This document shows positions 6,975 through 27,603 of a stretch of 64,000 nt of DNA, one piece after another; positions within the stretch are counted from its first letter, which is position 1; each line of letters opens with the position of its first letter. The position numbers and the translations under genes were made by a program. The notes under the pieces were generated by a model that searched no databases, was not told the DNA's origin, and saw only the letters and a list, made by a program, of their open reading frames with translations. The DNA comes from Prevotella sp. (GTDB taxonomy: Bacteria > Bacteroidota > Bacteroidia > Bacteroidales > Bacteroidaceae): positions 1 to 64,000 of the forward strand of contig JAFZIZ010000004.1 of the NCBI GenBank assembly GCA_017554145.1, read 5' to 3'.

Positions 6975-9900
6975 ATGACATTTACAACATTTATCAAACG
7001 CCCAGTATTGTCGACGGTGATTTCTATTCTCATCGTCTTGCTGGGTGCCATAGGATTGTTTTCACTGCCTATTGAGCAGTACCCTAATATTGCGCCGCCT
7101 ACTGTTGCAGTATGGACCAGCTATCCGGGTGCTGACGCTGAGACGGTGAAGAACTCCGTCATCACGCCGTTGGAAGAGAGTATCAACGGTGTGGAAGGTA
7201 TGGACTATATATCTTCTACCTCTGGTGCTGGTTCGGCACAGATTAGTGTGCTGTTCCGTCAGGGTATGAACCCCGATATGTGTGCCGTCAACGTGCAGAA
7301 CCGTGTACAGCAGGCGCAGGCATTGTTGCCCGCAGAGGTAACGCGTATCGGTGTGACTGTCACGAAGCGCCAGACATCACAGGTGCTGATGTTCACTCTG
7401 ACCAGTGACGGCCGTTATGACGACGAGTTCCTGACGAACTATAATAATATCAATATCATCCCTGCCATCAAGCGTATCCAAGGTGTGGGTGATGTGCAGA
7501 GCCCTGGTATGAAGAATTACTCCATGCGTATCTGGCTGAAGCCCGATGTGATGAAGCAGTATAATCTGATGCCTTCGGATATCTCGAATGTCCTGGCAGA
7601 ACAGAACATCGAGGCTGCACCAGGTTCCTTCGGAGAGCAGTCGGAAGTGGCTTACGAGTATGCGATGCGCTATACAGGTCGTCTGAAGACTGCTGAGGAA
7701 TTTGGCAATATCATCATTTCCAACGATGCCAATGGTCAGACCCTGAAACTAAAGGATGTCGCCCGTATTGAACTGGGTGGTCAGACATACTCTGTAGCGA
7801 TGAAGAACGACAACCTGCCGTCTGTGCTGGGTATGGTACAGCAGATTGCCGGTTCTAACGCCAATGAGATTGCGAAGCAGGTAAAGGCTGAATTGGAGGA
7901 GCAGGCAAAGTTGTTCCCTCCAGGTATGAAATATAAGATCAACTACGATGTAACGGAGTTCTTGTATGCCAGTATCGAAGAGGTGGTATTTACCCTGTTC
8001 TTCACCTTGTTCCTGGTGTTCATCGTCATCTACGTATTCCTGCAAGACTGGCGTTCGACACTCATTCCGTTGATTGCAGTACCTGTATCACTGATTGGTA
8101 CGTTCTTCTTCCTGAGCATCTTCGGATTCTCCATCAACCTGTTGACACTGTCCGCCTTGTTGTTGGCCATTGCCATTGTGGTGGACGATGCTATTGTGGT
8201 GGTAGAGGCTGTCCATGCGAAATTGGATCAGGGATATATGTCGCCGTTGAGGGCCAGTATCGATGCGATGAACGAGATATCGGGTGCTATCATTTCTATC
8301 ACACTGGTGATGGCTTCCGTGTTCATCCCAGTATCTTTCATCGGTGGTACGAGTGGTACGTTCTATCGTGAGTTCGGTGTGACAATGGCTGTCAGCATCT
8401 TTATCTCTGCTTTGAACGCCTTGACGTTGTCGCCTGCCCTTTGTGCCATCTTCCTGAAACCACATGATGAAGAAGGTCATGAGAAGAAGATGTCGATCAT
8501 TGATCGTTTCCATGCATCGTTCAATACGGCGTATGATAAGATTCTTGGAAAATATAAGACACGTGTGGAGAAACTGGTCCACAAGCCAATGATTATTATC
8601 TTGGCAGTTGTGATAGGTATTGTGGCAATGATCGGTACGTTGGCAACAACGAAGACGGGACTGGTGCCTGATGAGGATACTGGTACGCTCTTCTGTACGA
8701 TATCCATGCCGCCTGCAACCTCTGTGGCCCGTACGAAACAGGTGATCAGTCAGGTTGACTCTATCTTGGCTGCCGATCCAGCCATCCAGAGCCGTGAGCA
8801 GATTCAGGGTTATAACTTCATCGCAGGTTCAGGTAGTGACCAGGCAACGTTCATCCTGAAGCTGAAACCGTTCTCTGAACGTCAGAAGGGCTTATGGTGG
8901 AAGATCAGCGGTTTGTGGCAAGGTGATGGTATCTACCGTTTCTTCCTCAATCCGTATGAGTCAACGGGTGTCATCGCCCAGATATTCATCAAGACGGCGC
9001 ATATCAAGGACGCACAGATTCTGGCCTTCGCACCACCTATGATTCCTGGTTTCTCTGCAAACTCTGGTGTATCGATTGTGATGCAGGACCGTACTGGTGG
9101 TTCGTTGAATAGGTTCTTCGGTATTGTGAAAGACTATCTGGCCGAATTGAATAAGCGTCCTGAGTTCCAGGCAGCACAGACTTCCTATAACCCGAACTAT
9201 CCACAGTATATGTTGCATCTGGATGTGGCCAAGTGTAAGCAGGCTGGTATATCACCACAGACGGTGCTTACTACCTTGCAAGGTTACTATGGTGGAATGT
9301 ATGCTTCGAACTTCAATGCGTATGGTAAGCTCTATCGTGTCATGATTCAAGGCTCACCCGAGACTCGTATGACACCAGAGTCGCTGAACAGTATCTATGT
9401 GCGCACCCCAGGTGGTATGGCTCCCGCTCAGGAGTTCTGCCGTATGGAACGCGTCTATGGACCATCGAATATCAACCGTTTCAACCTGTTTACGTCTATC
9501 AATATTACAGCGACGGTAGCATCAGGTTATTCGACGGGTGAGGCTATTAAGGCGGCTCAGGAAGTGGCTGCTGAGATGTTGCCAGCAGGATATTCTTACG
9601 ACTATCAGGGTCTGACTCGTGAGGAAGCAAAGTCTTCGAATACGACACACCTGATCTTCATCCTGTGTTTCATCTTCATCTATCTGATTCTGTCGGCACA
9701 GTATGAGTCGTATATCCTGCCTTTGGCCGTAGTTCTCTCTGTACCGTTCGGATTGGCAGGCTGCTTCATCTTCACTATGATCTTTGGACATAGCAACGAT
9801 ATCTACATGCAGATATCACTGATTATGTTGATTGGTCTGTTGGCTAAGAATGCCATTCTGATTGTGCAGTTCGCCTTGGAGCGCCGTCAGACAGGTATGG

Positions 9901-10232
9901 CGATCTCATGGGCTGCTGTATTAGGAGCCGCTGCCCGTCTGCGTCCTATCTTGATGACCTCGTTGGCAATGGTTGTCGGTCTGTTGCCGATGATGTTTGC
10001 TACGGGTGTAGGTAAGAACGGTAACCAGACGCTGGGTGCCGCTGCTGTAGGTGGTATGTTGATTGGTACGTTGTTACAGGTACTTGTCGTACCAGGCCTG
10101 TTTGTCATCTTCCAGTCCATACAGGAGAAGTTCAAGCCGATGCAGTTTGAGGGTGATGAAGAGAATCCTGATGTGGCTACGGAAATAGCCCAGTATGCCC
10201 ATCGTCCTGTTGACTATAAATTAGAGGAGTAA
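6975..10232 (+). CDS. RND multidrug efflux pump (AcrB/MexB family)
   Basis: 1085 residues. Proton-driven inner-membrane pump of the hydrophobe/amphiphile family. The start FIKRPVLSTVISILIVLLG is the classic first helix. Twelve membrane segments are arranged as 1 + 5, a large periplasmic loop, then 1 + 5. The proton-relay acids of helix 4 are visible in IAIVVDDAIVVVEAVH (Asp404-Asp405). The second half has ILSAQYESYILPLAVVLSVP and LIGLLAKNAILIVQFA. Encoded between its adaptor and its channel (5 nt to the next gene), so all three parts of the tripartite pump are made together. Substrate range unknown. Confidence 0.95.
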   Translation: MTFTTFIKRPVLSTVISILIVLLGAIGLFSLPIEQYPNIAPPTVAVWTSYPGADAETVKNSVITPLEESINGVEGMDYISSTSGAGSAQISVLFRQGMNPDMCAVNVQNRVQQAQALLPAEVTRIGVTVTKRQTSQVLMFTLTSDGRYDDEFLTNYNNINIIPAIKRIQGVGDVQSPGMKNYSMRIWLKPDVMKQYNLMPSDISNVLAEQNIEAAPGSFGEQSEVAYEYAMRYTGRLKTAEEFGNIIISNDANGQTLKLKDVARIELGGQTYSVAMKNDNLPSVLGMVQQIAGSNANEIAKQVKAELEEQAKLFPPGMKYKINYDVTEFLYASIEEVVFTLFFTLFLVFIVIYVFLQDWRSTLIPLIAVPVSLIGTFFFLSIFGFSINLLTLSALLLAIAIVVDDAIVVVEAVHAKLDQGYMSPLRASIDAMNEISGAIISITLVMASVFIPVSFIGGTSGTFYREFGVTMAVSIFISALNALTLSPALCAIFLKPHDEEGHEKKMSIIDRFHASFNTAYDKILGKYKTRVEKLVHKPMIIILAVVIGIVAMIGTLATTKTGLVPDEDTGTLFCTISMPPATSVARTKQVISQVDSILAADPAIQSREQIQGYNFIAGSGSDQATFILKLKPFSERQKGLWWKISGLWQGDGIYRFFLNPYESTGVIAQIFIKTAHIKDAQILAFAPPMIPGFSANSGVSIVMQDRTGGSLNRFFGIVKDYLAELNKRPEFQAAQTSYNPNYPQYMLHLDVAKCKQAGISPQTVLTTLQGYYGGMYASNFNAYGKLYRVMIQGSPETRMTPESLNSIYVRTPGGMAPAQEFCRMERVYGPSNINRFNLFTSINITATVASGYSTGEAIKAAQEVAAEMLPAGYSYDYQGLTREEAKSSNTTHLIFILCFIFIYLILSAQYESYILPLAVVLSVPFGLAGCFIFTMIFGHSNDIYMQISLIMLIGLLAKNAILIVQFALERRQTGMAISWAAVLGAAARLRPILMTSLAMVVGLLPMMFATGVGKNGNQTLGAAAVGGMLIGTLLQVLVVPGLFVIFQSIQEKFKPMQFEGDEENPDVATEIAQYAHRPVDYKLEE

Positions 10233-10237
10233 GAATT

Positions 10238-11626
10238 ATGAAAAAAATCATGATATTTGCAACCGTTACACTGCTCTTGGGCAGTTGCGGTGTCTATAAC
10301 AAATATGAGCGTCCAGAGGTCGATACCAAAGGATTGATCCGTGATGCTGTGTCGGATGTGGATACACTGGTGGTACAGGATACTGCTTCGTTTGGCAATC
10401 TGCCTTGGCGTAGTGTGTTTACTGATCCGCAGTTGAGAAAACTGATTGAACAGGGATTGGAGAAGAATGCCAATTTGCAGAATGCAGCTCTCACCGTACA
10501 GATGTATGAGACCATGCTGAAGGCTGCCAAGCTGGCTTTCCTTCCTGCCATCCAGTTCGGTACTCAGAATGGTATGGGCTCCATCTCTACCATCTATACG
10601 GATCCGTCAGTGACAACGAAGATATACTCGCTTCCTGTATCTGCCAGCTGGACGTTAGATCTGTTTGGTAATATCCTGTCGCAGAAGCGTTCCACACAGA
10701 TGAAACTGTTGGGCTATAAGGACTATCAGATGGCTGTGCGTGCCCAGGTGATTGGTGGTATTGCCAATAGCTATTACACCTTGCTCATGCTGGATCGTCA
10801 GTTGGAGATTGTGACGGAGATGAGTGAGATGGCGAAAGAGACTTGGGAGATGATGAAGCTACAGTATAACTTGGGTCGTGTACGCTCTACCAGTGTCCAG
10901 AGTGCTGAGGCTTCCTATCTGTCAACGTTGACACAAGCTAATGAGTTCAGACGCCAGATCCGTGCTACGGAGAATGCACTTTCACTGCTCATCGGACAGG
11001 CAGGTCAGCAGATTCCTCGTACGACACTTGCTGAGCAGTACTTGCCAAGTGAGTTCTCGACGGGTGTAGGTATTGCCTTGCTGAAGAATCGTCCTGATGT
11101 CCATAATGCCGAGATGAACTTGGCGGCTTGCTTCCATGATGTACAGACTGCCCGTTCACAGTTCTATCCGACCATCACGATTGGTGCTCAGGGAGCGTTT
11201 ACCAACCAGAACGGTGTGCTCAATCCTGGTAAGTGGCTGCTCTCTCTCTTTGGCAGCCTGACGCAACCTATCTTTATGCGTGGTGCTTTGACTGCTAATC
11301 TGAAGGTGAGCCAGTTGAAGTATGAGCAGGCTTTCAATTCTTGGCAGAATGCCATCCTCTCTGCAGGTAATGAGGTATCGAATGCGCTTGTTAACTACAA
11401 CAGTTACGATGCCAACAGTAAGTTGGAAGCACAGCGTATTGAAGTGCTTCAGAAAAATGTGGAGGACACCCGAGCTCTTTATACGAGCAAGGGTTCCAGT
11501 TATCTGGAGGTACTTACTGCACAGACGCAGTTACTCAATGCCCAACTCTCAAAGGTTAGTGACGACTTCAGTAAGATGCAGGCTGTCGTCAGCCTCTATA
11601 CTGCTCTTGGAGGTGGAGGGAAATAA
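10238..11626 (+). CDS. RND efflux outer-membrane channel lipoprotein (OprM/NodT family)
   Basis: 462 residues. The lipobox GSCG (Cys17) gives an outer-membrane lipoprotein. The family hallmark LPWRSVFTDPQLRKLIEQ appears at residues ~54-71. Two structural repeats of long coiled helices (around residues 85-240 and 290-450) would form the trimeric tunnel; LLKNRPDVHNAEMNLAA is the usual second-repeat signature. It completes the tripartite pump. The stop is followed directly by a period-7 tract that fills the gap to the next start. The fragment at 462-620 is a remnant of another member of this family. Confidence 0.93.
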   Translation: MKKIMIFATVTLLLGSCGVYNKYERPEVDTKGLIRDAVSDVDTLVVQDTASFGNLPWRSVFTDPQLRKLIEQGLEKNANLQNAALTVQMYETMLKAAKLAFLPAIQFGTQNGMGSISTIYTDPSVTTKIYSLPVSASWTLDLFGNILSQKRSTQMKLLGYKDYQMAVRAQVIGGIANSYYTLLMLDRQLEIVTEMSEMAKETWEMMKLQYNLGRVRSTSVQSAEASYLSTLTQANEFRRQIRATENALSLLIGQAGQQIPRTTLAEQYLPSEFSTGVGIALLKNRPDVHNAEMNLAACFHDVQTARSQFYPTITIGAQGAFTNQNGVLNPGKWLLSLFGSLTQPIFMRGALTANLKVSQLKYEQAFNSWQNAILSAGNEVSNALVNYNSYDANSKLEAQRIEVLQKNVEDTRALYTSKGSSYLEVLTAQTQLLNAQLSKVSDDFSKMQAVVSLYTALGGGGK

Positions 11627-17183: not shown

Positions 17184-17607
17184 AGATTTGTTTCAGGTTT
17201 ATCTGGGATTGGGCTCCAATCTGGGCAACCGTGAGGAGAATATACGGCGTGCTATTGCCTTGATTGATAGTCTGGTGGGAAAGGTAGTGCGACAGTCTTC
17301 CTTGATAGAGACAGAGCCTTGGGGATTTGAATCTACAAATCGTTTCCTGAATGGCGTTATCCTTTGTGAGACCACCCTCACCCCCCGTGAGGTATTGAAG
17401 GCTACACAGAAGATAGAACGGGAACTTGGGCGTAAGAAGAAAACTCACCATTTACCACGCACCACTCGCCATTACAAAGATCGCCCCATCGATATCGATA
17501 TCCTGCTATATGGCGACTTGACAATTGACGAGCCAGATTTGAAGATACCGCATCCGCTGATGCAAGAGCGTGACTTCGTCATGATTCCCTTAAAAGAGAT
17601 ACAATAA
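17176..17607 (+). CDS. folK: 2-amino-4-hydroxy-6-hydroxymethyldihydropteridine pyrophosphokinase
   Basis: 143 residues. Transfers pyrophosphate from ATP to the pterin precursor in folate synthesis. Seen: [18 protein letters not shown] at the start, [14 protein letters not shown] in the middle, and [13 protein letters not shown], which holds the Mg-binding DxD pair. Between GRKKK and DRPID lies [13 protein letters not shown], about 7 residues longer than in E. coli HPPK and encoded by a period-7 tract (17443-17470). The gene overlaps queA by 8 nt and ends the operon at a hairpin terminator. Confidence 0.93.
17443..17470. repeat. Period-7 tract inside folK
   Basis: Four heptads of the form ANNNNCC (ACTCACC, ATTTACC and two further variants), ending 28 bases later. 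They encode the extended loop before the metal-binding DIDIL motif of FolK. Confidence 0.75.
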
Positions 17608-20759: not shown

Positions 20760-21287
20760 TTATGCGTCAGCAAAGACTTTACCGTCGTCGAGGGTAATCT
20801 GGAGCTTGGTATATTCGCAGTGGAAATCGTGCTGAAGGCGGTTGAGATAGCGGGCGCTTTCCCACTTACACATGGGGAGGTCGTGGAGCAAGTAATTGCC
20901 ACAGGCCTCTGGCCGTGTAGCAGGCACTTCATCCTGCGTGAGAATCCACTGAAGACATTCGATGGTGAGGCGACGCATATCCTCTACGGTATATGCTCTC
21001 GATTCCCGACCTTCGGTCGCCGACCCGTTGTCTTTCATGATGATATACATGCCTGTAAGACATCCCATAGGACCTACATAGACCACATCCTCTTTCACCT
21101 CACTATTGCGGAACCATGTCGCCATCAAGTGCTCCAGACTATGCATAGCAGCTGGGGCTACTGCAGGTTCCTGATTCGGCTCTGTGATGCGCAAGTCGAA
21201 AGTAGTAAAACCCTTATCCTCGCGTGAAACGTAAATACCCGGCTTCAAATGGGTATGGTCAATAGTGAAACTTTGTATAACTTCCAT
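20760..21287 (-). CDS. luxS: S-ribosylhomocysteine lyase (autoinducer-2 synthase)
   Basis: 175 residues from the ATG at 21287; the longer frame would overlap the kinase gene. Cleaves S-ribosylhomocysteine to homocysteine and DPD, the precursor of AI-2. Metal ligands are visible in AMHSLEHLMATWFRN (HxxEH) and in the C-terminal ACGNYLLHDL (Cys); the catalytic Cys region reads VGPMGCLTGMY. The start motif FTIDHTHLKPG matches the family. It is the last gene of a tight operon with mtnN and two sensor kinases (13 nt after the kinase stop). The operon delivers both steps from S-adenosylhomocysteine to homocysteine. Confidence 0.95.
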   Translation of the reverse strand: MEVIQSFTIDHTHLKPGIYVSREDKGFTTFDLRITEPNQEPAVAPAAMHSLEHLMATWFRNSEVKEDVVYVGPMGCLTGMYIIMKDNGSATEGRESRAYTVEDMRRLTIECLQWILTQDEVPATRPEACGNYLLHDLPMCKWESARYLNRLQHDFHCEYTKLQITLDDGKVFADA

Positions 21288-21300
21288 TTTTCTTTTACCT

Positions 21301-24105
21301 TTAATCTTTATCCTGTTTACAGGGAATCCAGCACCAGAAGGTGGAACCATGACCTTCGCCTTCACTGGTAACACCGATTGTGCCTCCGCAATGTTCTACA
21401 ATGCTCTTGCTGATGGCTAATCCAAGGCCTGTTCCCTGAACGAACTCATTGAGTTTGACAAAACGCTCGAAGACGGAGGCTTGTTTCTCCTTGGGAATAC
21501 CGGCACCAGTGTCTTCACAGTAAATATAGAGACCTAATTCGGTGGCGCGAGGGGACGAAGGCGTAAGGACGTCTTCGCCTTTACAATAGCGGTATCCTAC
21601 TTTGATATGTCCCTGAGTAGTGTACTTGACAGCATTGGTCACGAAATTGGTGATGACCTGCTGTATACGTCCCTTGTCAAGACGTGTGTTGAACGTCTCG
21701 TAGGGATTGTCTTTGATGAACTGGACACCAGGAATCTGTACGCGCTGCTCAAGTGTTTGGCAGATGTCGTCGAAGGCTTGTGCAAAGTCAATGTCAGTGG
21801 GTGCAATGGTCATGGGTTGAGACTCAATGTCGGAAGCCTCGAGAATGTCGCTAATGAGTCGGATGAGCATATCACAGTTATTGCGGATGATGCGTATGAG
21901 TTCCTGCTTCTCGCTGGCATCGCTAATCATAGGCAACACATCAGAGAATCCAACGATGGCGTTAAGTGGCGTACGTATCTCGTGGGTCATATTGGCGAGG
22001 AAAGCAGCTTTGAGGCGTCCGGAGTCCTTGGCACGTGTCGTCTCTATGCGCAGTTTTTCCTGTGCATCTATGAGCTCAGTAATGTTACGTGAGAGACCAA
22101 AGTATTCTGTGAGTTGTCCATCCTTATTAAAAATGGGTATACCAGAGACTGAGTACCAGGTGGGCTCATCATCGAGTGGTGTACGGTCGAAGGGCAGTAT
22201 CGTTTTGTAGTGTTTGCCTTGTTTCATAGCTCTCTGAATGTCGGCTGCGGCTTGCTCTCTGACATCGGCATTGATAGTTTGTATGTACTCCTCAATGGTT
22301 TCAGTGAATTCTGTCTCTCCAGGGGTGCGTGTCAGAATGACGACATTCTCTGACGGCCTATAGCTCCAGATATACATCTGGCTTTCCTTCAACAGGTAGG
22401 AGAGTTGTGCCTCATAGCGTTTCACGTCCTTGTTGATGGTATGTAGCTGACGGTCGTGATTAAGCTGCTCGCGATACATGCTACGCTCGGCGCTGATGTC
22501 GCGATTGGTAACGATATAGTAAACCAGTTTATCGTCGTCGTCCATCACGGGAAGGGCGCGGAATTCGGTATATTTGTTTAATCCTTGTTTCGGGAAATAG
22601 ATATGTTGGCAAGCGTGGAAAATCTCTCTCGAGCCAGGCAGATAAACACCCTTAATATTCGGAAATTCGAAGAGTGAGGTAGTACGGAAGTACTGCTCGT
22701 TCTCTTTATTAACTTGGCAAAATTCGAGCATTTTTTTGTTAATATCGAGAAGGTTACCGTTGGCATCGTAGAATGACATGGCGACAAGGTTGGTATCAAA
22801 CAGCATCTTATACTTGCTAACAATAGTCTTGATATGGCGGTCTTCGTTGACCTCGTCGGTGATATCCTTTGTGGTGTAGACGATGTATTGCAGCTTACCG
22901 TTTTCCTTCTCGGCGATGGCATTGCCGTAGAAGTTCCTCCAGAGGGGAGACTCGCTAGTTCCCTGATTGAATCTGAGATTCATTTCGAAATGATTGATGG
23001 CGCCAGTAATCAGTTGTGCGTTGAGGTTGTGCAAAAGCTGGGCCTCTTCATCAGGCATGCGTTTGAGAAAATCCTCTGGCGATGACTTTCCCTCTGGTAT
23101 CATCTCTCCATATCTATTGCGTAGCGTGTTACTTTTGAAGTCCCACTCCACCACGAAATAGTCGCCCATATTGAGAACTTGGTTCATCATTTGCCCAAGG
23201 TCAGAACTCTCGTGTACTGACTGTCTGACCCTTTGGCGTACAATGCGTATGAGTACCAGTACGATGATGGTTGCCAGAAGCAGTCCTATGAGGATATAGA
23301 GTGCCACTGGCGATGCATCATCGTGAATACGCTCTGGATGGAACCAGCGGTCGTAGACTTTCTGCAGTTTGCCTGCTTGTTCCAAACGGGTGTATTGGTC
23401 GTCAATGATATTGACCAGGTCTTTGTTGTAACCGATAATTCGAAGTTCACCGGCAGGGATGTCTATCTCGTCAAGGGTGATGCCGTCGAGTCCAAGTTCC
23501 TGAATCTTATGACTAAGGGGTATCTCTCCCCATATATAGTATTTGTATTTACCTTGGACGATGCCAGAAAGACCATCCTTTGGCGTGTGGTACTCTATGG
23601 TAAACGGCAGTTTCCCCCTTTGGGCAAGAGCCAAAGCCGCATAGTCGTCCTCTTTCAGGATGAGCGTGTCTGACGGCAGAAGGTTGTCAATCCGATTCAG
23701 CGGTTTGGCATTAGTACGACGTGCTAATTTCAGGTTGTAATAGTTGATGTACTTGTGGGTAGACACGTAGGGCGCGTCTTTGTAGAAATAGTACAGGGCG
23801 TGGATGAGGTCGGCCTCACGTTTCTTAAACATCTCTGTTGCTACGTGCCATTCCTGCATAACGAACTTATGAGGAATGTTCAGTTGGTCGAGAATTTGGT
23901 TGAGTACGTCAACGTTGTATCCAGCAGGCTTTCCTTCTGCATTGACGAATTCAAAGGGGCGGAAATCCCAGTCACAAACAATGACCAATGGTTTCTCCTC
24001 TGTATAGCCAAAGTTATTGGCAGCGGAGAGGGATGATAACAAGGCAAAAAGGTTGAAGAGTAAAATGATTGACCTTTTCCCGTTTTGGAATATATCTCGT
24101 ATCAT
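21301..24105 (-). CDS. Periplasmic-binding-domain sensor histidine kinase (active type, His708)
   Basis: 934 residues. Order: signal peptide (1-29), an SBP_bac_3-type solute-binding domain in the periplasm (~38-255; WDFRPFEFVNAEGKPAGYNVD is the usual first lobe), a membrane helix (~268-288, ALYILIGLLLATIIVLVLI), and three PAS-like domains (~310-690). Then HisKA with phosphoacceptor His708 in NMTHEIRTPLNAIVGFSD, and HATPase_c with the N box NFVTNAVKYTT, DTGAGIP and GTGLGLAISKSIV. No receiver or HPt domain and no response regulator gene nearby, so the partner must be elsewhere. Paralogous and collinear with the upstream kinase. Encoded between it and luxS; the ligand may be an amino acid or methyl-cycle metabolite (inference). 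Confidence 0.9.
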   Translation of the reverse strand: MIRDIFQNGKRSIILLFNLFALLSSLSAANNFGYTEEKPLVIVCDWDFRPFEFVNAEGKPAGYNVDVLNQILDQLNIPHKFVMQEWHVATEMFKKREADLIHALYYFYKDAPYVSTHKYINYYNLKLARRTNAKPLNRIDNLLPSDTLILKEDDYAALALAQRGKLPFTIEYHTPKDGLSGIVQGKYKYYIWGEIPLSHKIQELGLDGITLDEIDIPAGELRIIGYNKDLVNIIDDQYTRLEQAGKLQKVYDRWFHPERIHDDASPVALYILIGLLLATIIVLVLIRIVRQRVRQSVHESSDLGQMMNQVLNMGDYFVVEWDFKSNTLRNRYGEMIPEGKSSPEDFLKRMPDEEAQLLHNLNAQLITGAINHFEMNLRFNQGTSESPLWRNFYGNAIAEKENGKLQYIVYTTKDITDEVNEDRHIKTIVSKYKMLFDTNLVAMSFYDANGNLLDINKKMLEFCQVNKENEQYFRTTSLFEFPNIKGVYLPGSREIFHACQHIYFPKQGLNKYTEFRALPVMDDDDKLVYYIVTNRDISAERSMYREQLNHDRQLHTINKDVKRYEAQLSYLLKESQMYIWSYRPSENVVILTRTPGETEFTETIEEYIQTINADVREQAAADIQRAMKQGKHYKTILPFDRTPLDDEPTWYSVSGIPIFNKDGQLTEYFGLSRNITELIDAQEKLRIETTRAKDSGRLKAAFLANMTHEIRTPLNAIVGFSDVLPMISDASEKQELIRIIRNNCDMLIRLISDILEASDIESQPMTIAPTDIDFAQAFDDICQTLEQRVQIPGVQFIKDNPYETFNTRLDKGRIQQVITNFVTNAVKYTTQGHIKVGYRYCKGEDVLTPSSPRATELGLYIYCEDTGAGIPKEKQASVFERFVKLNEFVQGTGLGLAISKSIVEHCGGTIGVTSEGEGHGSTFWCWIPCKQDKD

Positions 24106-24141
24106 GTGGCGTTATTTTTTCATTTTTCAACTATACATACT

Positions 24142-26910
24142 TCAATCCAATATCTTTACCACTTCGCTGGTACTGCAGGGGATGATAATCCAGACGATGG
24201 TACCCTTGCCAACCTCAGACTTCAGGCGTATTCTGCCTCTCATCAGCTTGACAACCTCCTGACAGATGGGCAGTCCCAGTCCACTGCTATTGCTATCGGT
24301 GGTGACGAAACGCTCGAAAATTCTATCTAACAGGTCGGAAGGGATACCACAACCCGTATCCTGAATGGCAACGGTGAGGTCTTCACCATTATAGTCGAAG
24401 TGTGCACGGACATAGCCCGAGGAAGTATATTGTATGGCATTGGCAACAATCTGGTCGATGATGACACCCATATTGTTCAAGTCAATGTCGAGTGTGAGGT
24501 GTTCGTATGATTTATCAACGATATATTTGACACCAGGTCGTTGGTTGTGCATCCATGCTGATTGGCAACGCCCCTCAAAGAAGGCGGCAAAGTCAACAGG
24601 TTCGGGCTTGAATTCTATCATACCCGCATCAAGACGTGAGAGGAAGAGGATATTGTTGACCAGATTCAGCAAACTACGTGAGTTCTTCTTAATCTCCTGG
24701 ACGAAGAACTGTTCGTCGTCGTCATTGTGTTTTTGCTCGATGAGTTCAGCGAAGCCAACTACAGAATTGAGCGGAGTACGGATTTCGTAGCACATGTTAT
24801 GCAGGAAGGCGTTCTTTACCTCCTCCACTTCCTGTGCCTTTCTGGTTTCAAGGGCTAGTTGCTCCTCAGTGGCCTTGATGTCGCTGATGTCACGGCACAT
24901 GCCGAAGTAATTGGTGATATGTCCATTGGCATCCGTTACAGGCACAAACGAGAATGACAGACAAAGCAGCTTGCCTCCTTTCATGCGGATGGTGGACTTG
25001 ACGACGGCTTTGACAGGCTGTTGGGTGAGACTGTCCATCGTGTTCATGATGCGTTGGGCTGTACTCTTCGATTCCTCGGCGGTCAGTGATAACAGACGTG
25101 TCTGTGTCAGTTGGTGCTGGATATGCTCAATCTCGCTGAATATTGTCAGGGTATGGGTGTCTGGCGAATAATCAACGATGCGTACGCCTCCGTTTTTCAG
25201 CACGTAGTCAATGTTACGCATGTAGTCTTGCAGCTCATCGGTGGCCTCCTGTAGTTTAATAATCTTTTTCTGAAGACTGGAGTAGGACTTTGCTAACTCT
25301 GTAACGTCGCGCCCCGTACCGAAAATCCCAAGCAGTTTGCCGTCATTGTCACGGAGAGGTACCAACTGTAACTCGTAGTATAACTCGTCACGTTGCAAAA
25401 CCTGATTGAGAGTGCGATTGTCGTCAGGCGACTTGAATACCTGTGTGAGGTAGGTATAATCTAGGTCTTCGAGGGAGAGATTGGGATCTCCCATCACGTT
25501 CTGAACCGAGATGTGTTTATCAATGACTTGCTGGATATCACCGCCGATACCCTTGATGGCTTTATCATTCATGTCTTCAATGATGCCGTGTTCGTCGTAT
25601 AATACTGTGTCGACTAAGGCAGAATTGAAAATATGCTGGTAGCGTAGCATGGTGTCTTTCTGTTGCTGTTGACGCAGATGTGCTTTTGTAATGTCAGTGG
25701 TGGCACCGATAAGAATCTTGGGATTTCCGCTCTTGTCACGTCTCATCACAGAGAAATCGACGGAGAATATATGTGACGTCTTGTCATCTTTCTTGATAGC
25801 ATGAAACTCCATTGTCTCGCGTTCCTTTTTCCGGGTTGCTAACTCATTGAGTAGGATGCACAGCCGTTCAAAGTCTTCAGGAAGCACATAGAACTGGATA
25901 AAGTCCGGTGATAACGGGATAGAAGCCTTCTTGCCTTTATGGTCGATGCTGGTAAGCATTTTGGTAGAGATTTCATACAGCCAGATATGTACCTTACTCG
26001 TATTCAGAATGAGCGAGAGACGGTTGTTGGAGTGTCGTAGGTTTTTGGTCATCCTGCGCTCGTAGAGTCGGTAAGCGACATAGTAGATAAGGAAGGAAAC
26101 GATAACTATCAGCAATGCGATGACAACGTACCACACCCATGATGGGATTCCCGTCTCCGTGTGTTCTGGATAGAACCACTTGTTTTGGATGGGCTGAAGT
26201 CGACCTTCGGAGTTCAGCTTGGCAAAGACACTATCTACCTGCTCCAACAGCCGTTCATCGTTCGACATAAATTTGTATTCTCCATGCGGAATATTGACTG
26301 GTGTCAGTTCTAGGTCGTCATAGCTGAACTTGTGGAGCAGCCATTTCAGCGATAGTGTGTTCCATGCAATCTGACTACCTTTATGGTTGTGAACATATTG
26401 CACGGCTTCTTGCATATCATTATAAGGTATGGCATTCTTTCCCCAGCCCCGTTCTTCCATGAGGTGGTGGCTGAAACTACCATCGTGAACAATGACCCGC
26501 TGTTTGGCCAGGTCATCGACACTCTTGACGAGCACGGGCTCGTTCTTACGGTGAACAATGCTATGGGTGAAAATCTGGATAACACTTCTGCCATATTGCG
26601 CATACTCGTTATGAAAGTGTGCATCCATACCGCACATTAGGTCGGCATGACCATCCTTTAGGTCGTTCAGCGCGTTCTGCGTGGGTTTCAGTTTGATTCT
26701 ATAGGGGATGTCCAACTCACTGAAGATGAGTTTTAGCAGGTCGATATTGAAACCAGTGGGCTCACCTATGTCATTGACAAATGAATACGGCCACAAATCC
26801 CACGCATCCTCATAGACCAATGGATGCTCCTCATCATAGACGCGTGCCGTGGTAATAGTTGGTAGGAGGCTTATGAATATGATAATCAGGATGTAATTTA
26901 ATCTCTGCAT
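24142..26910 (-). CDS. Periplasmic-binding-domain sensor kinase with Tyr in place of the phosphoacceptor His
   Basis: 922 residues with the same plan as the downstream kinase: signal peptide (1-22), SBP_bac_3-like domain (~24-250, WDLWPYSFVNDIGEPTGFNID), membrane helix (~258-280), about three PAS-like domains, HisKA and HATPase_c. In the HisKA motif the sequence is NMCYEIRTPLNSVVGFAE: codon TAC (24787-24789 on the minus strand) gives Tyr708 where its paralogue has His708. The ATPase side looks intact (IVANAIQYTS, QDTGCGIPSD, SSGLGLPICQEVV). It therefore may bind ATP and dimerise but cannot be phosphorylated on the usual His; it could phosphorylate or regulate the paired kinase in trans. Second gene of the operon, 12 nt after mtnN. 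Confidence 0.88.
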   Translation of the reverse strand: MQRLNYILIIIFISLLPTITTARVYDEEHPLVYEDAWDLWPYSFVNDIGEPTGFNIDLLKLIFSELDIPYRIKLKPTQNALNDLKDGHADLMCGMDAHFHNEYAQYGRSVIQIFTHSIVHRKNEPVLVKSVDDLAKQRVIVHDGSFSHHLMEERGWGKNAIPYNDMQEAVQYVHNHKGSQIAWNTLSLKWLLHKFSYDDLELTPVNIPHGEYKFMSNDERLLEQVDSVFAKLNSEGRLQPIQNKWFYPEHTETGIPSWVWYVVIALLIVIVSFLIYYVAYRLYERRMTKNLRHSNNRLSLILNTSKVHIWLYEISTKMLTSIDHKGKKASIPLSPDFIQFYVLPEDFERLCILLNELATRKKERETMEFHAIKKDDKTSHIFSVDFSVMRRDKSGNPKILIGATTDITKAHLRQQQQKDTMLRYQHIFNSALVDTVLYDEHGIIEDMNDKAIKGIGGDIQQVIDKHISVQNVMGDPNLSLEDLDYTYLTQVFKSPDDNRTLNQVLQRDELYYELQLVPLRDNDGKLLGIFGTGRDVTELAKSYSSLQKKIIKLQEATDELQDYMRNIDYVLKNGGVRIVDYSPDTHTLTIFSEIEHIQHQLTQTRLLSLTAEESKSTAQRIMNTMDSLTQQPVKAVVKSTIRMKGGKLLCLSFSFVPVTDANGHITNYFGMCRDISDIKATEEQLALETRKAQEVEEVKNAFLHNMCYEIRTPLNSVVGFAELIEQKHNDDDEQFFVQEIKKNSRSLLNLVNNILFLSRLDAGMIEFKPEPVDFAAFFEGRCQSAWMHNQRPGVKYIVDKSYEHLTLDIDLNNMGVIIDQIVANAIQYTSSGYVRAHFDYNGEDLTVAIQDTGCGIPSDLLDRIFERFVTTDSNSSGLGLPICQEVVKLMRGRIRLKSEVGKGTIVWIIIPCSTSEVVKILD

Positions 26911-26922
26911 AAATAATAACTG

Positions 26923-27573
26923 TTAGAGGGATTCGACAAAGGTTTTGGTGACTTGGAAGGAATTGTCGGCTATCTGATTCCAGAAATCATGATACTGCGA
27001 AGCATCAGTGTCACGAAGAGGAATGTCACTGATGACACGGAAGGAAATAAATGGAACCTTGTTAATATAACAAGTCTGGGCAATGGCACATGATTCCATA
27101 TCCACTGCCTTTGCCTCGGGGAATAGATTGATGATGCTACGCATCTTCTCCTTGGTGTCGACAAACCAGTCGCCAGTGACGATGAGACCTGTATGAATTG
27201 ATAATTGATAATTGATAATTGACAATTGCTGCGCTTTGCTTAGCAGATACGGGTCGGCAGGATAGCGGACAGGGAGACCCTGTACTTGTCCGTAGACGGT
27301 GGTGTTGTCGATAGCAGTTCCGCAATAGACATCATGGTAGGTGACTTCTGTGCTAACGATGACGTCTTGTATGTTGATATCGTCACCATTGCCTCCTGCA
27401 CATCCGCTGGAAATGATGATGTCGGGATGGAACTCGTTAATCATCCGCTGGGTACCAAGGGCGGCATTCACCTTACCGATACCGCATTTTGCTATTCTTA
27501 TATCACTGTCGCTGAAGAGTTCTTTTAACTGCTTCAGTTCCTTATCCATTGCTACGATAATACCTATTTTCAT
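26923..27573 (-). CDS. mtnN: 5'-methylthioadenosine/S-adenosylhomocysteine nucleosidase
   Basis: 216 residues. Hydrolyses S-adenosylhomocysteine to adenine and S-ribosylhomocysteine, the substrate of LuxS, and methylthioadenosine likewise. Catalytic acids are in place: Glu12 in AMDKEL, the Glu of AVDMESCAIAQ, and the Asp of VISDIP. SSGCAGG and GDWFVDTKE are family motifs. Surface residues QQLSIINYQLSIH are encoded by a period-7 AT-rich tract and replace the helix that reads ACIAELNLNAV in E. coli, with about the same length. First gene of the mtnN-kinase-kinase-luxS operon; its promoter is divergent from yfhO. Confidence 0.94.
   Translation of the reverse strand: MKIGIIVAMDKELKQLKELFSDSDIRIAKCGIGKVNAALGTQRMINEFHPDIIISSGCAGGNGDDINIQDVIVSTEVTYHDVYCGTAIDNTTVYGQVQGLPVRYPADPYLLSKAQQLSIINYQLSIHTGLIVTGDWFVDTKEKMRSIINLFPEAKAVDMESCAIAQTCYINKVPFISFRVISDIPLRDTDASQYHDFWNQIADNSFQVTKTFVESL
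27196..27228. repeat. Period-7 tract inside mtnN
   Basis: AATTGAT repeated three times, then AATTGAC and a partial unit. It encodes LSIINYQLSI in MtnN. The cleanest tandem heptamer in the window. Confidence 0.85.
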
Positions 27574-27595: not shown

Positions 27596-27603
27596 CAAAG
27601 TTA
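27596..27603 (-). promoter_or_regulatory. -7 promoter box of the mtnN-kinase-luxS operon
   Basis: Reverse-strand TAACTTTG, 22 nt upstream of the mtnN ATG at 27573. Confidence 0.7.

Follow-up and report, generated by a model that had tools for sequence, protein, structure and literature searches.

A candidate pseudokinase-kinase receptor pair of Prevotella, placed between mtnN and luxS in one genome

Described kinase pairs and the mtnN-luxS locus

In the RetS-GacS system of Pseudomonas, one kinase is regulated by a partner kinase through heterodimers, although its sensors and architecture are other than those of K1 and K2, the pair of Prevotella kinases described here. By analogy, the closest working precedent for K1-K2 is FasB-FasC of group A Streptococcus, neighbouring kinases for which the accessible part of PMC12675982, where RetS-GacS is also mentioned, gives two-hybrid evidence of a heterodimer and proposes a pseudokinase partner. 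Likened by description, both systems consist of two adjacent kinases of which one is defective. They differ in that FasC keeps its His (H246) and has a dispensable kinase domain, FasB being the kinase (PMC12675982, same part), whereas in the Prevotella pair the upstream K1 has lost its His and K2 is complete, and in that the Fas locus has a response regulator (PMC12675982, same part) whereas none was found at K1-K2. DivL of Caulobacter, as described in the accessible part of PMC4211667, is a PAS-containing pseudo-histidine kinase that carries Tyr in place of His and keeps its N, G1, F and G2 boxes, a combination of changes that is also seen in K1. DivL, however, is made up of PAS domains and a kinase module, with DivK~P as its binding partner and CckA as its target (PMC4211667, same part), whereas K1 senses through a periplasmic SBP domain and has K2 as its neighbour. 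A hybrid kinase without the His is noted in the accessible part of PMC11481889, with a heterodimer as one suggested possibility. Within the open-licence PMC literature, we found nothing on histidine-kinase pseudokinases of Prevotella, and nothing that brings together any two of Prevotella, paired or tandem kinases and a luxS operon.

With respect to their sensors, K1 and K2 resemble the BvgS type, in which a periplasmic SBP_bac_3 (VFT) domain drives the kinase, but each of them has a single SBP match, neither matches a receiver or HPt domain, and the system is split over a pair. Compared with LuxP-LuxQ, the luxS and mtnN genes of the Prevotella locus are real, but the kinases gave no match to a LuxP-type or dCACHE sensor and the linkage is not conserved; the LuxQ kinase core is among the NCBIfam matches of both kinases, far below the cut-off (128.6 and 156.3 versus 1200). 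According to the accessible part of a human-gut survey, Bacteroidota have none of the known AI-2 receptor genes although luxS is common (PMC12503165), and that of a rumen survey names Prevotella as one of the genera with the most AI-2-related genes, with emphasis on dCache receptors (PMC9540692).

The window, by which we mean the whole stretch of 64,000 nucleotides analysed here, comes from contig C36 of a draft Prevotella genome of 2.80 Mb in 38 contigs that is 83.5% complete with 5.1% contamination. Examination of the coordinates confirmed the four-gene layout given in the original prediction, with mtnN, K1, K2 and luxS following one another in that order on the minus strand (Table 1), separated by 12 nt (mtnN-K1), 36 nt (K1-K2) and 13 nt (K2-luxS). 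The claim that the four genes have a single -7 box ahead of them also held: the box, of what we take to be the Bacteroidetes type, is the sole TA..TTTG outside coding sequence on the minus strand between 20700 and 27750, and a motif scan of this interval placed just one other, at 24016-24009, within K2. The identities proposed for mtnN and luxS agree with Pfam and with NCBIfam models over their cut-offs (142.3 versus 73.8 with TIGR01704 for MtnN; 169.9 versus 158 with PRK02260.1-4 for LuxS). The luxS start was taken as the ATG at 21287, as the alternative, longer form in the ORF list, which begins with a GTG at 21374, would run into K2. Pfam likewise found the predicted SBP_bac_3-type domains in both kinases, each followed by PAS, HisKA and HATPase_c domains. 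K1 and K2 are probably transcribed together with mtnN and luxS in the window species.

Table 1. Features of the mtnN-K1-K2-luxS locus in the window.
Feature	Coordinates	Strand	Remarks
-7 promoter box TAACTTTG ahead of mtnN	27596..27603	(-)	Presumed Bacteroidetes type
mtnN (pfs), methylthioadenosine/S-adenosylhomocysteine nucleosidase, 216 aa	26923..27573	(-)	PNP_UDP_1 6e-40; TIGR01704
K1, sensor pseudokinase, 922 aa	24142..26910	(-)	Periplasmic SBP_bac_3, PAS, HisKA with Tyr for His, HATPase_c
K1 SBP_bac_3-type sensor domain	26161..26841	(-)	Residues 24-250
K1 degenerate H-box NMCYEIRTPL	24770..24798	(-)	Tyr708 codon 24789-24787
K1 HATPase_c domain	24175..24465	(-)	N/G1/F/G2 motifs intact
K2, canonical sensor histidine kinase with SBP_bac_3 sensor, 934 aa	21301..24105	(-)	
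K2 SBP_bac_3-type sensor domain	23326..24009	(-)	Residues 33-260
K2 intact H-box NMTHEIRTPLN	21961..21993	(-)	His708 codon 21984-21982
luxS, S-ribosylhomocysteine lyase, 175 aa	20760..21287	(-)	Pfam LuxS 3.4e-42; PRK02260.1-4

Sensor domains and kinase cores of K1 and K2

Comparison of the sensor profiles with the PDB returned 3h7m (a kinase sensor domain), glutamine/arginine binders and BvgS, with the K1 profile matching the BvgS structures 3mpl and 4q0c as well as 3h7m. Structure models generated from 4-row alignments reached a pLDDT of 67 (weak) for the K1 sensor and 81 (fair) for the K2 sensor and are too weak for reading the ligand pocket. For these models Foldseek listed 3h7m and amino-acid binders with GlnBP-like folds, at query-normalised TM-scores of 0.38-0.61 in the list for K1. 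Modelling of the two domains for comparison with SBP_bac_3 and LsrB/LuxP structures had been put forward as a check of the original prediction, and the models did not favour an AI-2 sensor: the fold is of the amino-acid-binder type, neither LuxP nor LsrB is among the 50 listed Foldseek matches of either sensor domain, and Pfam, yielding SBP_bac_3 alone, gave no LuxP-type or dCACHE sensor match in K1 or K2. As modelled, the sensors match amino-acid-binding-protein folds. Amino-acid binders of this kind clamp the alpha-carboxylate of their ligand with an Arg and bind its amine with an Asp. In the printed alignments the clamp Arg has no counterpart in the K1 sensor and is not conserved in the K2 sensor, and the position of the clamp Asp is taken by Trp-Asn in K1 and Trp-Gly-Glu in K2, where the alignment is ambiguous by two residues. 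Conservation is striking in the K1 sensor, where 24 columns are invariant across 29 sequences, and lower in the K2 sensor, with 4 such columns across 28 sequences.

The H-box of the window K1 reads NMCYEIRTPLN, with Tyr708 where the phosphoacceptor His is expected, a point that the original prediction had missed; K2 has His708 at this position, and the ATP-site motifs N, G1, F and G2 are intact in both kinases. Similar kinases at other loci mostly stand as B1-B2-K1-K2 or as K1-K2, B1 and B2 being relatives without the SBP domain, and K1 has K2 beside it wherever the fetched stretch runs far enough. A census of the H-box at 63 loci and the window, covering rows over 300 bits, revealed that 49 of the 59 readable K1 rows (of 60) have a residue other than His (Tyr 39, Phe 5, Gln 2, and Glu, Ser and Asn 1 each), with His in the other 10, and that the same applies to 30 of 32 B1 rows (Tyr 30, His 2), whereas His is kept in all 59 K2 and all 35 B2 rows; some of the rows are near-identical (G273, G318, G282), and these counts are not independent. 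B1 is doubly defective, as it has the N-box Asn in 7 of 32 rows and the second Gly of G2 in none (26 have Asp). Loss of the H-box His is not required everywhere in K1 and B1, as 10 of 59 and 2 of 32 rows, respectively, keep it. The outlying K1 proteins of L044 (G015) and L052 (a Prevotella MAG) keep the His and have lost N-box, F and G2 residues of the ATP site, so that in them the defect is in the opposite half.

B1-B2 of the window genome is located on another contig, C14, beside a GH36 gene, and in G035 B1-B2 is also beside a GH36 gene, with K1-K2 still following. At L035 in G022, two extra fragment-like ORFs lie between B2 and K1 (8526-10976), one of which, a 400-aa ORF (9774-10976) with Gln at the H-box, has K2 as its best match at 247 bits and falls below the 300-bit cut, so that it is outside the census; the kinase array seems to grow and decay at this locus.

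A tree of 185 kinase rows, made by a quick search with the H column left out, split {K1,B1} from {K2,B2} at an SH-aLRT of 100. Within each side it also set K rows apart from B rows, the exceptions being L044, L052 and the B2 of L051, which suggests that the kinase pair was duplicated as a unit. All non-His rows fall in the K1/B1 clade, and the tree calls for a minimum of 7 His/non-His changes, gain and loss not being told apart. Over the last 245 residues of K1, dN was 0.05-0.18 versus a dS of 0.9-2.3 in 12 comparisons, the high dS values being rough; 11 of the 12 involve a non-His K1, and the remaining one, L163-L165, is between His-keeping members. K1 is under purifying selection and is not merely decaying. 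With the signal of the flanking RRF and RsgA genes removed, the distance matrices of 25 loci correlate at 0.82 for K1-K2 and 0.74 for B1-B2, compared with 0.40-0.49 for the cross-pairs, a co-variation that may also stem from linkage and joint transfer.

Genomic distribution and neighbours of the kinase pair

K1-like proteins, defined by an E-value of at most 1e-160, were found in 111 of 299 genomes of the genus, and in 34 of the 130 with at least 90% completeness and at most 5% contamination. The best 80 of 587 relatives from a scan of contigs included near full-length K1 relatives just at L051-L053, all from Prevotella MAGs. Of 298 genomes of the genus, 99 contain the exact DNA motif of the Tyr H-box. 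In a sample of the order covering 295 genomes and 184 genera, the genome of the window alone has it and the other 294 lack this exact motif, which misses other codons and residues. Judged by this motif, the Tyr form is genus-restricted in the samples searched.

Gene positions were taken from 80 of the 111 K1 genomes, all on draft contigs, in which luxS was found 76 times and mtnN 79 times. K1 lies between mtnN and luxS in the window alone among these 80, and the conserved order expected from the original prediction was therefore not borne out. In 46 of the 76 genomes with both genes, mtnN and luxS are direct neighbours, at most 700 nt apart on the same strand; they are equally close on opposite strands in 4 and apart in 26, the window included. 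K1 has luxS within 10 kb in 3 of the 80 genomes (window, G273, G098) and mtnN within 10 kb in 7 (window, G191, G244, G273, G007, G098, G107), a count that includes deleted mtnN copies in G191 and G244. The four-gene operon does exist, but it was seen in one species, and the draft genome of the window is the sole assembly showing the K2-luxS junction. The mtnN-K1 junction recurs in the nearest species, G191 and G244, where K1 is 82% identical to that of the window and the 3' end of mtnN comes 26 nt before the K1 match. The mtnN copy preceding K1 in these two genomes is without its middle part (L131 about 17270-17543; L133), and further on after K2 comes a TypA-like gene with the same protein start as in the window, which we take to be TypA in all three. 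An intact mtnN stands beside YfhO, 13 kb off on the same contig in G191 but on a different one in G244. In both genomes luxS and K1 are on separate contigs, and the G244 K1 is frame-broken near its end on the draft contig. As luxS, mtnN and YfhO follow 2.6 kb after the kinase array in G273 and the distance is 5.2 kb in G098, a short-range event would be enough to give the window order, which is most simply explained by neighbouring blocks having been rearranged locally. Among 36 genus members, luxS is present in 14 of 14 with K1 and is common also without it (18 of 22). LuxS proteins of the genus fall into two score classes, about 143-161 and 181-207 bits, and G028 has two copies.

Common flanks of the 63 kinase loci are RsgA-RRF (34) and a CitMHS transporter (24), with the array often between both. 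An O-acetylhomoserine sulfhydrylase gene (metY, homocysteine synthase) and/or cysK stands beside the kinases at 7 of the 63, within 1.3 kb at six (L031, L043, L053, L146, L166, L167) and, as metY with cysK, 2.4-3.4 kb upstream of the array at L052. L043 and L053 have metY with cysK upstream of the array and L031 has cysK alone, while at L146, L166 and L167 a second sulfhydrylase, 41-45% identical to the first, lies divergently beside K1. All five of the proteins scanned, the metY products of L043, L146, L166 and L167 (TIGR01326) and the cysK product of L031 (TIGR01139), score over the NCBIfam cut-offs. The fetched stretches of the remaining 56 loci gave no metY or cysK match, and this sulfur theme was picked post hoc, after the neighbours had been seen. 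With mtnN in the window clade counted in, such genes stand beside the kinases in several contexts that are apparently separate. A further histidine kinase lies directly upstream of K1 at L042 (4444-5598) and L044 (5875-7275).

An AraC-family regulator is found directly downstream of K2 on the same strand at 18 of 54 loci with room for it (e.g. L033:16102-16965), 5-82 nt away and overlapping in one case, and the sulfhydrylase loci L146, L166 and L167 are among these 18. A search of 16 genomes found the regulator or relatives of it in 4, two of which, G016 and G024, have no K1; the window genome (E up to 1e-20) and 11 others are without it. It was thus rejected as the output of K1-K2 and is a frequent neighbour of the module, not a fixed part.

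In agreement with the claim that no response regulator is linked, none of the 12 receiver-domain matches of the window genome lies in the operon, and a scan of 20 proteins encoded near the kinases at other loci, which falls short of a full census, found no receiver domain. An orphan 117-aa receiver (L176) occurs in 100 of the 111 K1 genomes versus 18 of 187 others (Fisher p 7e-47), in a total of 298 genomes (299 in the K1 search) and with 10 of 128 genomes dropped that have a weaker-class best match only (E above 1e-36). A control orphan receiver (L173) behaves alike, being present in 82 of the 111 K1 genomes (p 1e-32), and when the comparison is confined to the 131 genomes that have any of the three, the association of L176 with K1 disappears (p 1.0); the co-occurrence therefore reflects shared lineage, and L176 was rejected as the partner of K1-K2. 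The control itself (L173:1489-1857; C37:24140-24505 in the window genome) is a stand-alone 122-aa receiver directly upstream of a Bac_transf sugar transferase and is 93-100% identical in the 97 matching genomes of 298, which is unusually conserved for a receiver.

Explanations for the kinase pair and its placement

We hold with moderate confidence that K1-K2 is a pseudokinase-kinase receptor pair, a two-gene module of one Prevotella lineage with a tentative tie to homocysteine/cysteine. With its periplasmic binding domain, DHp region and usually its ATP-site motifs kept and its phosphoacceptor His mostly lost, K1 would probably work only together with an intact K2. The two proteins may form a heterodimer in which binding of a ligand by K1 (and K2) would control phosphorylation of His708 of K2, served by the ATP site of either subunit, and K2 would then hand the phosphate to an unlinked response regulator. 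In the window species, a local rearrangement would have put the pair between mtnN and luxS. The K1 and B1 rows with His, the Gln-bearing K2-like fragment of L035 and the frequent AraC neighbour weigh against this module. Homocysteine/cysteine status is suggested as a possible link by the genes that adjoin the pair in some genomes, mtnN and luxS in the window and cysK and the O-acetylhomoserine sulfhydrylase gene at other loci. The earlier suggestion of an input tied to sulfur amino acids fared unevenly in this respect: metY and cysK at 7 of 63 loci speak for it post hoc, whereas the unrelated flanks elsewhere, the AraC regulator after K2 at 18 of 54 loci and a clamp Arg that is conserved in neither sensor speak against it. 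A more far-reaching version, in which Prevotella has obligate receptor heterodimers, often in two-pair arrays, whose upstream periplasmic sensor has repeatedly changed its His, with the downstream partner kept intact, and which report sulfur amino-acid status and are wired into mtnN-luxS here, appears rather unlikely to us.

The original prediction read the four genes as one functional system in which the kinases sense AI-2 or a metabolite of the methyl cycle. Tight packing in the window fits this reading, as do mtnN within 10 kb of K1 in 7 of 80 genomes (two deleted copies counted), luxS in 3 of 80, and a gut survey that, in its accessible part, reports common luxS in Bacteroidota but none of the known AI-2 receptor genes (PMC12503165). 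The order, however, occurs in a single one of the 80 K1 genomes, which are on draft contigs and include 4 in which luxS was not found, the nearest species have a deleted mtnN copy at K1 and luxS on another contig, luxS is carried by genus members without K1 as well as by those with it, and the sensor fold is that of amino-acid binders, with no LuxP or LsrB among the 50 listed matches per domain. As almost all relatives have the kinases at a distance from luxS and mtnN, an outcome that the original prediction had itself set against the idea, the four-gene reading fails, and we rejected K1 and K2 as AI-2 receptors on grounds of both linkage and sensor fold; that they form an AI-2 or methyl-cycle system is very unlikely.

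It is fairly plausible, though less so than the main reading, that the rearrangement brought an unrelated kinase pair into an mtnN-luxS operon that lent it a promoter only, with no sulfur tie, in which case the pair may still be a pseudokinase-kinase unit. The short distances in G273 and G098 suffice for such an event, the mtnN adjacent to K1 in G191 and G244 is internally deleted while K1-K2 remain (with the frame-broken K1 of G244), and the many loci without a metY or cysK match and those with an AraC regulator after K2 point the same way. The recurrence of metY, cysK and mtnN beside the kinases argues against pure chance, by a rough, uncomputed expectation of well under 1 for a theme chosen post hoc. 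A chimaeric window contig, with the four-gene order nonexistent, is scarcely credible: the genome is an incomplete and partly contaminated draft, its K2-luxS junction is in no other assembly, and its K1-K2 is closest to G191/G244 whereas its B1-B2 is closest to G035 among the loci compared, but the mtnN-K1 junction recurs in two other assemblies, in G191 on one contig with the YfhO and TypA-like genes that flank the window operon, and reading frames are intact across the gaps of 12-36 nt.

What lasts, we suggest, is that Prevotella has a conserved receptor pair of pseudokinase and kinase, tentatively linked to the metabolism of sulfur amino acids, and this corrects the tempting AI-2 sensor reading of the mtnN-luxS neighbourhood. 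Pseudo-histidine kinases are known from a few cases, and as the K1-K2 family has an invariable gene order, intact members by the dozen, repeated one-sided changes of the catalytic residue and His-keeping natural controls, the role of the dead partner is directly testable in it. If K1 and K2 are obligate heterodimers reporting sulfur status, they would represent a new bacterial receptor architecture and, on the same reading, would give Bacteroidota a first candidate for a sensor with a tie to the AI-2 pathway.
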